Position numbers and translations under genes: made by a program
Notes under the pieces: model-generated
Seen by the model: only the letters and a program-made list of their open reading frames with translations
Databases searched by the model: none
What the model was told of the DNA's origin: nothing
Shown: positions 25,915 through 45,562 of the stretch, piece by piece
Numbering within the stretch: position 1 is the first letter of the stretch
How the letters are laid out: each line of letters starts with the position of its first letter
Origin: Heliocidaris erythrogramma
Taxonomy: Eukaryota > Echinodermata > Echinoidea > Camarodonta > Echinometridae
DNA length: 64,000 nucleotides
Direction: 5' to 3'
NCBI GenBank assembly: GCA_025617745.1
Contig: CM046873.1
Span: 26,053,410-26,117,409 of the forward strand

Positions 25915-25919
25915 TTATT
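25914..25919 (-). promoter_or_regulatory. AATAAA overlapping the stop codon
   Basis: The codons ACC AAA TAA AGC create AATAAA across the stop. Whether it serves as a poly-A signal is unknown; a longer 3' UTR using another signal is equally possible. Confidence 0.3.
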
Positions 25920-44200: not shown

Positions 44201-45562
44201 GAGAAAATTGGTGTTTAAATTGACCGTACAGTTATATCCCAGGGGGGGAAATATTTATCAAATAAAGGGGAACACACTAATCCTCCTCATTCAAACACAT
44301 CCAGACAAGATACTAGAAATCATAAACAAAATGGAAAAAAAATCATTACAGTAAACTTCATGAATTTCGCTAAAACGGTTGTAATTAACAATTCTGTAAC
44401 ACAAAAGTCTCTGGTATTACAGTCATCTTAAGATTATCAGTCCGGGCCCTGTTTCATAAAACTTGTTATCAATAACAAGTCACAGAAACTATTATAAGCT
44501 ACTGAAATCCTTGCATTTGATTCGCTGAGAGCAAATTTGTCATAGATTTGGGGCAGTCGTTATTGATAACAAGTTTCATGAAACAGGACCCTGCTCGTTA
44601 CCCAGACACAGCTATGGCTTTAATGGTCCTCTTCCCTGGGTTAAGCAGGAACGGTCCCTTGTATTTGATGGTGTTCTTGTCTTTACGTGCAAACGGGTCT
44701 GGTTTGCTGCTATTAGTACTGAAGTAGATGCTTGCATTGCGAGTGGCTATTCAAAGATAATACACAGAGAGAAATGTCATGAAATACAGTGATATGTCGT
44801 TTTGACTTAACCCTTACTGTACTGAGCTAATTCAAGCACCTCTCTGACTGGAGAGGGGAGAGGGGGGAGGGGGGGGGGGGGGGGGGGGGGGTCTTGAGAA
44901 TCGGATAAAGAACACAAATCTATTGTTATTTTTATCTCATTTTAAATCATTTTTTTTTCATTTGATAATAACATTTATGCAAATTATATGCAAAAATATA
45001 CATTTCAATTAATAATCAAGTAAAGAAAGGCTTTGGAGATGTGGAACGTTTGCAAAATAATATGTTCCATTTATATAGCGCAGCTACTATATGAATATAC
45101 TGCGCTTAATACAAAGTATTACATTATTACCCCGGCTTTAGCCGAGCTGCCATGATAGGCGCTAAAGCATTCAAGGATTTTCTTCCTACCGGGTACCCAT
45201 TTACTTTACCTGGGTGGAGAGTGGCAAATGTAGATGAATGTCTTGCCAAAGGACATTAGCGCCGTGGCGGGATTCGAACCGCGAACCATGTGAGCCACAG
45301 TCCGGTGACGTATCTACTAGACCACGACACCTCCCCTTTCCGCTTAACACATCATCACAAATAATTTTCAAATGGTCTTGTGGGCGGCAGGTGGCCCATG
45401 GGCCGCGTAAGAACCCACAAAATAAATTTTAATAAATTCTGTTTACAAACCTGATTTGATTTCAATGAGTGTGTTCGTGTCAATCTGACTACTCGTCTGA
45501 CCGGTCAAAGGCACCCTCAGTGGAGTAATGGTTGGAACGCAAACAGCTCCTGCAGATGGCAT
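25915..45562 (-). CDS. DZANK1-like: DZANK1-like/annexin fusion protein, 22 coding exons, 908 aa
   Basis: The exons (minus strand, 5' to 3') are 45562-45451, 44746-44602, 43922-43787, 42056-41982, 40952-40861, 39654-39561, 38693-38349, 37564-37450, 35919-35887, 35374-35286, 34470-34390, 33758-33628, 33045-32718, 32256-32175, 31155-31061, 30654-30541, 29926-29836, 29344-29208, 28006-27817, 27208-27150, 26589-26467 and 25974-25915. Every junction is GT-AG with matching phase, and the joined length is 2727 bases including the stop. Residues 1-592 follow DZANK1 in order: chitobiase-like N-terminus, a Q/P-rich linker, a GYWKRQ...GKPKMGK motif and ankyrin repeats. No cysteine-rich zinc ribbons are present. 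Residues 593-908 form a full annexin core. A TGA in frame just before the start Met fixes the N-terminus. DZANK1 is linked in fish to NINL and dynein transport; annexins bind acidic membranes through calcium. Combined function is inference. Confidence 0.9.
26790..26885. repeat. Microsatellite and SINE remnant in intron
   Basis: An (AAT)n tract (26760-26787) is followed by a stretch with GTAGCTTTAGCCAGGGTAAT, similar to the body of the SINE at 45050-45340. Confidence 0.45.
28113..28975. repeat. Pyrimidine-rich minisatellite in an annexin intron
   Basis: About fifteen copies of a roughly 57-base unit composed of C and T with few A or G, built from CTCTCACTCTTACTCCC and TTTCCTCCTCCTCTTCCTCC. 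It lies in the intron between annexin repeats 2 and 3. On the transcribed strand's RNA it is almost pure purine. Open frames through it on both strands are artefacts. Confidence 0.9.
30064..30294. mobile_element. 231-bp TTAA-flanked element (CCCCTACCATG ends)
   Basis: Bounded by TTAA at 30060-30063 and 30295-30298, with inverted ends CCCCTACCATG and CTCCTTCCATG. A reverse-oriented copy lies at 41734-41967. piggyBac-like by its TTAA target. Confidence 0.7.
30969..31038. mobile_element. ~72-bp TTAA micro-element (copy 1 of 4)
   Basis: Contains CTGGAACCGGGAGGATTCTG and GGGAATGAGGGAATTCAGTA. The right flank is TTAA and the left flank ATAA. Sister copies are at 34301, 39458 and 42160. Confidence 0.65.
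31365..31809 (+). mobile_element. Inverted-repeat element carrying a tRNA-Arg-like SINE head
   Basis: Arms of about 31 bases (31365-31395 and 31778-31809) are inverted copies containing CGGCACAGATTGGGGC. Inside, at about 31540-31605, GTGGCGCAATCGGATAA (A-box, tRNA-Arg-like) and GAGTTCGAATCTCGG (B-box) lie at tRNA spacing. A SINE captured by a MITE is the simplest reading. Confidence 0.6.
31937..32144. mobile_element. hAT-like MITE (CAGGGCTGCCAA ends), copy 1
   Basis: Ends CAGAGCTGCCAAC and (inverted) CAGGGCTGCCAAG, with repeated CAGGGAGA motifs. It lies in an intron and ends 31 bases before exon 14. The second copy is at 38838-39041. Confidence 0.7.
32718..35919 (-). CDS. Fusion gene exons 9-13: coiled basic stretch, ankyrin repeats, charged hinge
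   Basis: Exons 9-10 give a short basic segment ([18 protein letters not shown]). Exons 11-13 encode two to three ankyrin repeats (residues ~420-545), with the signatures [29 protein letters not shown] and [12 protein letters not shown]. Exon 13 then adds a charged hinge, an SEDESEEEE acidic run between lysine/arginine-rich runs (residues ~555-592). This hinge directly precedes the annexin core. Read-through of the exon 13 donor would reach a TAA after two codons, so intron retention would give a DZANK1-like protein without annexin. Confidence 0.85.
33311..33352. repeat. Poly-C/poly-A tract in intron
   Basis: About 11 C followed by about 19 A, in the intron between exons 12 and 13. Confidence 0.9.
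34301..34372. mobile_element. 72-bp TTAA micro-element (copy 2, reversed)
   Basis: Exact TTAA at 34297-34300 and 34373-34376. Sequence is the reverse complement of the other copies (begins CCCGTTAAATACTGAATCC). Confidence 0.7.
34560..34715 (-). mobile_element. Probable LINE 3' end with (CTTTGAA)n tail
   Basis: Read on the minus strand, AT-rich sequence with TTAGTGAT-like words ends in about four CTTTGAA repeats (34575-34600). Such short repeat tails mark CR1/L2-type LINE 3' ends. No coding part remains. Confidence 0.45.
34720..34869. mobile_element. 150-bp palindromic MITE (CCTTGTAAAAAAGTACCATA ends)
   Basis: Ends CCTTGTAAAAAAGTACCATA pair with the inverse over about 40 bases, and internal GGTAATTTGA words repeat. 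Intronic. Confidence 0.75.
36370..37142. mobile_element. 773-bp TTAA-flanked piggyBac-like MITE
   Basis: Ends CCCTATTCCTACTGG and (inverted) CCCTATTCCAACTGG, flanked by TTAA at 36366-36369 and 37143-37146. Both subterminal regions carry a G/C tract next to TCAATTTGACCCCCC-like words. CCC-starting ends with TTAA targets are typical of piggyBac. No transposase. Confidence 0.8.
37147..37429. mobile_element. Element of the CCTTTCAGGACAGG family
   Basis: Starts CCATTTCAGGACAGG immediately after the TTAA that ends the previous element and finishes CAACTGTCTTGAAAGGG before TCAA. Inverted relative to the copies at 20455 and 43164. Confidence 0.65.
37450..42056 (-). CDS. Fusion gene exons 4-8: linker and conserved GYW...PKMGK motif
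   Basis: Exons 4-6 (residues ~132-218) are rich in N, Q, P, S and M and probably disordered. Exon 7 (residues 219-333) contains [12 protein letters not shown] and [19 protein letters not shown] ending in GKPKMGK. Exon 8 continues [20 protein letters not shown]. These blocks correspond to the conserved middle of DZANK1. In vertebrate DZANK1 two zinc ribbons lie in this part of the protein, but here there is no cysteine between residue 8 and the ankyrin region, so they are absent from this transcript model. Confidence 0.85.
37601..37974. mobile_element. TTAAAG-ended element, GTCATGCAAGTACATTGTG family (copy 1)
   Basis: Begins TTAAAGATAAAG and ends CTACCTTCTCTTTA. Shares AACATTTGAGCTATTTCTC and the CAAAGCAAGTGGGAAAGG block with copies at 42781, 54651 and 62460. 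Confidence 0.65.
38838..39041. mobile_element. hAT-like MITE (CAGGGCTGCCAA ends), copy 2
   Basis: About 90 percent similar by eye to 31937-32144, in the same orientation. Intron upstream of exon 7. Confidence 0.7.
39272..39409. mobile_element. MITE, GGGGAGCGTTTCATCAAGC subfamily (copy 3)
   Basis: A nearly perfect 138-bp palindrome with GGGGAGCGTTTCATCAAGCG at each end. Confidence 0.85.
39458..39530. mobile_element. 73-bp TTAA micro-element (copy 3)
   Basis: TTAA at 39454-39457 and 39531-39534. Contains CCTCCGGTAACCGGG and GAAAGAATTCAGTA. Confidence 0.7.
40106..40418. mobile_element. Inverted-repeat element, GGCCCGTATTCTGAAC family (copy 2)
   Basis: Ends GGCCCATATTCTGAACTCCG and its inverse pair over about 50 bases, with internal AAACCATGGTTTAA palindromes. 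Confidence 0.8.
40711..40850. mobile_element. MITE, GGGGAGCGTTTCATCAAGC subfamily (copy 4)
   Basis: 140-bp palindrome ending eight bases before the donor of exon 5; the element edge lies in the intron. Confidence 0.85.
41503..41700. mobile_element. Decayed element with AAACCTGTCTATAAAGACC ends
   Basis: Right end (inverted) ATACAGTGAAACCTGTCTAT resembles left end ATATAGAGTCCAACCTGCTT. Both are followed by GACCAC. Flanking TA suggests a Tc1/mariner-like origin, weakly. Confidence 0.5.
41734..41967. mobile_element. 234-bp TTAA element, reverse copy of 30064-30294
   Basis: TTAA at 41730-41733 and ATAA at 41968-41971. The right edge lies 11 bases from the donor side of exon 4. Confidence 0.7.
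42160..42231. mobile_element. 72-bp TTAA micro-element (copy 4)
   Basis: TTAA at 42156-42159 and 42232-42235. Contains GTGGGAACCGGGTAGACCC. Confidence 0.7.
42339..42486. mobile_element. MITE, GTTTCATAAAACTTGTTATC family (copy 5)
   Basis: Ends GGGCCCCGTTTCATAAAACT and its inverse. 148 bp. Confidence 0.85.
42781..43161. mobile_element. TTAAAG-ended element (copy 2)
   Basis: Same family as 37601-37974, same orientation, starting TTAAAGACAAAG. It abuts the next element. Confidence 0.65.
43164..43780. mobile_element. CCTTTCAGGACAGG-family element with nested insertion
   Basis: Left part (43164-~43420) and right part (~43695-43780) match 37147-37429 and 20455-20796. The middle (~43425-43695) is unrelated. 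It holds a tRNA-like B-box (GTTCGAGTCTC at 43500) and ends GTTGGCAGCTCTG, like the hAT-like ends at 31937. Confidence 0.6.
43787..45562 (-). CDS. Fusion gene exons 1-3: chitobiase-like N-terminal domain
   Basis: Exon 1 encodes [18 protein letters not shown] and then an [11 protein letters not shown] stretch, which I recognise as the start of DZANK1 proteins (their VCVPQIIPLRVP start). Exons 2 and 3 continue with [15 protein letters not shown], the [18 protein letters not shown] stretch and a final SKTFIVDW strand. This is the layout of the chitobiase/beta-hexosaminidase C-terminal-like beta-sandwich (CHB_HEX_C_1), residues about 1-105. An acidic stretch ([10 protein letters not shown]) and an SRRSRRS basic patch follow. 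Confidence 0.85.
44444..44591. mobile_element. MITE, GTTTCATAAAACTTGTTATC family (copy 6)
   Basis: Ends GGGCCCTGTTTCATAAAACT and its inverse. It ends 11 bases before the exon 2 donor side. Confidence 0.85.
44848..44891. repeat. Poly-G tract in intron 1
   Basis: A GA-rich stretch leading into more than 20 uninterrupted G on the plus strand (C on the gene's sense strand). Confidence 0.9.
45050..45340 (-). mobile_element. tRNA-derived SINE in intron 1
   Basis: On the minus strand a tRNA-like head (about 45340-45265) has A-box GTGGTCTAGTAGATAC and B-box GCGGTTCGAATCCCGCC. The body follows with TCCACCCAGGTAAAG, a stretch I recall as common in widespread marine-animal SINEs. It continues to about 45050. 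The same body occurs in part at 26805-26885. Confidence 0.7.

Follow-up and report, generated by a model that had tools for sequence, protein, structure and literature searches.

The DZANK1 protein, as described in PMC4617706, has zinc fingers at residues 244 to 317, and its binding to NINL was mapped to these fingers by yeast two-hybrid. In zebrafish photoreceptors DZANK1 and NINL cooperate in vesicle transport, and both proteins are located at the ciliary base in cultured retinal pigment epithelium (RPE) cells and in rat retina; the full-length clone has 752 residues (PMC4617706). The Protein Data Bank (PDB) entry 11xu contains four chains of DZANK1, also of 752 residues each, and the use of two-character names for its chains hints at a large assembly. 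This entry was not among the matches listed for queries with CFAP20, beta-tubulin, SPAG6, and RSPH9, and its code was not found among the matches listed in the literature from 2024 onward. Annexins normally have N-termini that are short or rich in Pro, Gly, and Tyr. Here we describe a locus of the echinoid Heliocidaris erythrogramma at which a DZANK1 homolog and a complete annexin core are probably spliced into a single gene. The window analyzed is a stretch of 64,000 nucleotides (GCA_025617745.1, contig CM046873.1, positions 26,053,410 to 26,117,409), and the locus occupies its minus strand from position 45562 to position 25915. Among the matches listed in a search of titles and abstract openings of open-licence PMC articles, no DZANK1-annexin or ankyrin-annexin protein was described. 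We make no claim that the architecture is new.

Gene model and domain content

Rebuilding the gene from the minus-strand DNA joined 22 exons in phase into a single frame that runs for 908 codons to its stop, without internal stops. This is the frame given by the original prediction, the exon coordinates of which proved correct. All 21 introns are of the GT/AG type. The least certain border of the model is at exon 6, for which the acceptor was picked to keep the frame. The DZANK1-like half and the annexin half each lie far beyond chance; both are conserved across hundreds of residues, which rules out the 908-codon frame as a chance product. The question of chance touches only the junction between them.

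The N-terminal half begins with exon 1 (45451 to 45562), which contains the start codon, followed by exon 2 (44602 to 44746), with an Fn3_assoc domain (residues 33 to 98; 43.3 bits in Pfam), and exon 3 (43787 to 43922), in which the domain ends. Over these exons, residues 3 to 127 align to residues 2 to 127 of 11xu DZANK1 (79.0 bits, phmmer). Exons 4 (41982 to 42056), 5 (40861 to 40952), and 6 (39561 to 39654) encode a linker, with exon 4 in the stretch where DZANK1 carries its zinc fingers. A second alignment, of residues 232 to 553 to residues 416 to 743 of 11xu DZANK1 (198.0 bits, phmmer), covers the middle motif and the ankyrin region. The middle motif is in exon 7 (38349 to 38693), and exon 8 (37450 to 37564) continues the middle region. 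Exons 9 (35887 to 35919) and 10 (35286 to 35374) precede exon 11 (34390 to 34470), where the ankyrin region begins, and exon 12 (33628 to 33758), which encodes an ankyrin repeat; both of the latter are recognized by Pfam as well as by the 11xu alignment. Exon 13 (32718 to 33045) encodes an ankyrin repeat, the C-terminal part of DZANK1, and a charged hinge. The best Ank_2 stretch in Pfam spans residues 428 to 517. An AlphaFold model of exon 7 alone had a mean pLDDT of 56.6 and was not used. One of the DZANK1 introns contains a hairpin inverted repeat at 34720 to 34869 that resembles a miniature inverted-repeat transposable element (MITE), with outer arms 97% complementary.

Thus, the predicted protein shares with 11xu DZANK1 the N-terminal 125 residues with Fn3_assoc, the middle motif, and the ankyrin region, in the same order. 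The two differ in the stretch between the alignments, where 11xu DZANK1 has 288 residues (128 to 415) and the protein encoded in the window has 104 (128 to 231). They also differ past the aligned end, where 9 residues remain in 11xu, whereas the protein from the window continues with a 39-residue hinge and then an annexin. The hinge (approximately residues 554 to 592) is rich in Lys, Arg, and Glu, and the annexin core starts at residue 593. A DZANK1 part reaching to about residue 560 and followed by a charged hinge had been predicted; the hinge is indeed present, but the DZANK1 alignment stops at 553.

Residues 593 to 908 form a complete four-repeat annexin (297.9 bits in Pfam, with four stretches passing), as predicted. 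Solved annexins are matched across nearly the whole core; in a single stretch, the scores are 344.5 bits for ANXA7 and 336.6 bits for the second half of ANXA6. The first core exon, exon 14 (32175 to 32256), opens at a phase-0 acceptor. Exon 15 (31061 to 31155) lies in repeat 1, exon 16 (30541 to 30654) spans repeats 1 and 2, and exon 17 (29836 to 29926) lies in repeat 2. Exon 18 (29208 to 29344) spans repeats 2 and 3, exon 19 (27817 to 28006) lies in repeat 3, exon 20 (27150 to 27208) spans repeats 3 and 4, exon 21 (26467 to 26589) lies in repeat 4, and exon 22 (25915 to 25974) encodes the end of the annexin and the stop codon. The lengths of these nine exons (82, 95, 114, 91, 137, 190, 59, 123, and 60 nucleotides [nt]) presumably represent the usual annexin layout with two exon pairs merged. 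Each of the four repeats has GxGT or KWGT with an acidic residue (D or E) 38 positions on, a rule that we take to define the type II calcium motif. Because the motif occurs in every repeat, all four are expected to bind calcium. The four-repeat core and the four type II calcium motifs are shared with annexins A7, A6, A4, and A5 (PDB 8w5s, 1m9i, 1ann, and 1avh) and with the annexin paralogs of this genome. Where known annexins have their short or Pro/Gly/Tyr-rich N-terminus, the protein described here would have a DZANK1 part and hinge of 592 residues.

Repeats were seen in and around the annexin half. Intron 18 contains a long GA/CT-rich tandem array with a period of about 57 (28131 to 28976). 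Directly behind the annexin stop (25516 to 25882), a unit of about 100 nt is repeated in tandem in 3.6 diverged copies, which by eye resemble the last annexin exon and 3' end. The repeat 4 exon of a C20 paralog is also copied, and those copies contain stops.

The junction between the two halves

The halves meet across intron 13 (32257 to 32717), a gap of 461 nt that is the second shortest of the 21 introns and contains one AATAAA, at 32429. The exon 13 donor (AAG/GTGGGT, phase 0) scores 9.76 bits on a matrix of approximate human frequencies. It ranks ninth of the 21 donors and is the strongest GT in the gap. The phases of exons 13 and 14 match (0/0), as would happen by chance about once in three cases. 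Two other AG sites in the gap are in frame with exon 14, and both run into stops.

Other exons that might lead into exon 14 were sought as phase-0 stretches from an ATG to a donor, up to 100 codons long, between 48500 and 32257 (16.2 kb). At thresholds of 9, 7, and 5.5 bits there are six, eight, and fourteen such stretches, respectively. Five of the six strongest end on donors of DZANK1 exons (exons 3, 4, 7, 11, and 13), and the sixth is a bare ATG at 34813, inside the hairpin repeat. A PGYP-type annexin first exon was also considered and set aside, as a composition scan that covered the window's minus strand and a further 29,991 bases past the window saw no PGYP-rich exons. Because the gap is short, the donor is good, the phases match, rival ATG exons are few, and no PGYP-type exon was seen, exon 13 appears to be the best available partner for exon 14. 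We infer that the two are spliced together as a rule. Overall, the locus is probably a single fused gene, in which a DZANK1 homolog is spliced through exon 13 to an annexin core that follows on the same strand after 461 nt.

Intron 13 also contains what appears to be a relic of ankyrin coding sequence. The 31 nt at 32564 to 32594 (minus strand) are identical to exon 13 at 26 of 31 positions (E = 2e-5), with a score of 21 versus a best score of 12 in 60 shuffles. The end of DZANK1 may have been duplicated or reworked before or during its joining to the annexin, which would fit both the hinge extension and the relic.

Annexin paralogs and the missing start codon

According to the original prediction, exon 14 has no start codon and has an in-frame stop just upstream. 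Both features are real, and further stops lie behind, but the nearest stop is the TAG of the acceptor itself. The own genome, an assembly of 1.06 Gb in 26 contigs, has at least 30 annexin matches, and more annexin genes may exist; the sample compared here consists of five paralogs whose core exon lies in the DNA inspected, judged by eye. In four of the five, the core exon opens, like exon 14, at a phase-0 acceptor adjoining a Thr-Val motif. In the remaining paralog (C20, about 12.89 Mb) it reaches further upstream; a second, partial core-exon copy in that locus (L031, 7348) was excluded from the count. The nearest paralog, at C20:23.85 Mb, is 66% identical in repeat 3. Its core is preceded, at a distance of about 25 kb, by PGYP-rich exons that probably belong to it.

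Given that the core exons of four of the five paralogs start at a phase-0 acceptor, the missing start codon is uninformative by itself, and we dropped the argument that it proves fusion. Such core exons take their start from another exon, so the sole question is which upstream exon feeds exon 14. Read past its donor, exon 13 continues as Val-Gly-TAA, with the stop at 32711 to 32709, two codons beyond the donor as predicted. It had been concluded from this stop and the missing start codon of exon 14 that the halves must be joined for translation. This holds for the annexin half, which needs an upstream partner, but the DZANK1 half could end alone at the Val-Gly-stop.

Alternative explanations

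Several observations weigh against a fused gene. In this genome, the core exons of annexins usually begin without a start codon. In addition, an uninterrupted frame across the hinge comes cheap and is weak evidence: purines make up 85% of the stretch, and two of the three possible frames contain no stop. No processed copy with the spliced junction was found in a retrocopy search of the own genome, which passes over very frequent words and evaluates the top candidates only. Of its six matches, three are pieces of exons from this same locus, and the other three are short (76 to 82% identity) and fall entirely within the purine-rich part of the query that corresponds to the hinge. A short or noncoding 5' annexin exon could also hide: besides the exon 13 donor, the gap contains another at 32409 (7.78 bits), which no in-phase ATG precedes, and fourteen stretches reach 5.5 bits in 16.2 kb, although true DZANK1 exons are among them. 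Weak tblastn matches of paralog PGYP pieces (e.g., E = 0.001, minus strand) overlap exon 7 in a different frame, and such matches also occur in far downstream repeats. Finally, exon 13 could be a terminal exon, ending at the Val-Gly-stop and followed by the AATAAA.

The last of these points leads to the alternative that survives best, although we consider it unlikely: two tandem genes that make no joined protein. The DZANK1 gene would end at the TAA (32709 to 32711), if exon 13 is left unspliced, and be polyadenylated near the AATAAA at 32429, and the annexin would have its own promoter and an unrecognized 5' exon. The position of the stop just past the donor is consistent with this arrangement, as is the end of 11xu DZANK1, which terminates just 9 residues past the aligned part. 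The paralog core exons, whose start codon comes from elsewhere in the gene in four of five cases, are also consistent with it, and the donor at 32409 could close a noncoding exon. However, AATAAA is present in 46% of 5,000 shuffles of the gap, and the gap offers no good start exon, as the strongest of its donors to come after an in-phase ATG reaches 4.35 bits. The start exon of a separate annexin gene would need a place inside or upstream of DZANK1.

Alternatively, the genes could be mainly separate and the joined mRNA a minor by-product of occasional read-through, via the donor just before the DZANK1 stop. The very short spacing on the same strand and a good donor six bases ahead of the stop are what such chimeras need. 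We regard this as quite improbable, because it again requires a separate start exon for the annexin, and the search turned up no good candidate. Least probable is an internal promoter in DZANK1. Translation could then begin, for example, at the ATG at 32867, which lies in exon 13 and shares the frame of the hinge and annexin. This would yield an annexin with a short N-terminus made of the exon 13 end and the basic hinge, beside or instead of the full form. Evidence for a promoter was neither looked for nor encountered, and the sequence can be explained without one.

Zinc fingers and a possible mechanism

No Pfam zinc family was detected at E values up to 1 in the 908-codon model. The same was true at E values up to 5 in the three minus-strand frames of 46200 to 32401 with stops read through, a scan that recovered the Fn3_assoc and ankyrin exons, included no known zinc-ribbon exon as a control, and could be escaped by a zinc ribbon split by introns. 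Within these limits, hidden zinc-ribbon exons were rejected as a feature of the locus. Scanning by eye for CxxC identified one stretch with three pairs at 35981 to 35886. It overlaps exon 9 in a different frame, comes after the middle motif, and has no Pfam match; we take it for chance. As zinc fingers were not detected, this seems to be a DZANK1 homolog without the double zinc ribbon that gives the family its name. The original prediction placed the protein in a type tied to dynein and NINL transport. Its DZANK1 homology stands (79.0 and 198.0 bits), but the NINL/dynein link is weakened and does not transfer, because the zinc fingers, where the NINL interaction had been located, were not detected.

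If the fused gene is expressed as modeled, its product would be about 100 kDa. The Fn3-associated domain, middle motif, and ankyrin repeats may act as a scaffold, which the short Lys/Arg/Glu-rich hinge would connect to the four-repeat annexin. The annexin is predicted to bind acidic membranes upon a rise in calcium. A direct, calcium-gated membrane tether may thus replace the zinc-finger/NINL adaptor, and the fused protein may have a ciliary location. One possible, if doubtful, history is a domain swap, in which the lineage lost the NINL-binding zinc fingers and gained the annexin. An adaptor-dependent dynein cargo protein would have become a scaffold that docks on membranes only at high calcium.

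Other features of the window

A histone gene was identified on the minus strand at 63398 to 63847 (Pfam Histone, 78.2 bits); judging from its sequence, we take it to be H2B-like. On the plus strand, 50450 to 51766 encodes a death effector domain that is seemingly split over exons. Its second piece scores 36.0 bits (cutoff, 35.9) and its first scores 15.2, which is below the cutoff; further open frames extend up to 54090. Open frames at 13877 to 15046 (minus strand) and 58856 to 61610 (plus strand) presumably encode reverse transcriptase of the long interspersed nuclear element (LINE) type, based on their motifs.

Implications

If the junction is expressed, this gene would encode an annexin whose N-terminus is very long, structured, and of the scaffold type. 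Equally, it would encode a DZANK1 homolog tied to membranes without the known NINL adaptor, an unusual way to anchor a ciliary scaffold. The name DZANK1 need not imply NINL binding in this animal. If the fused gene is real, it would suggest that membrane linking is central to the role of DZANK1.

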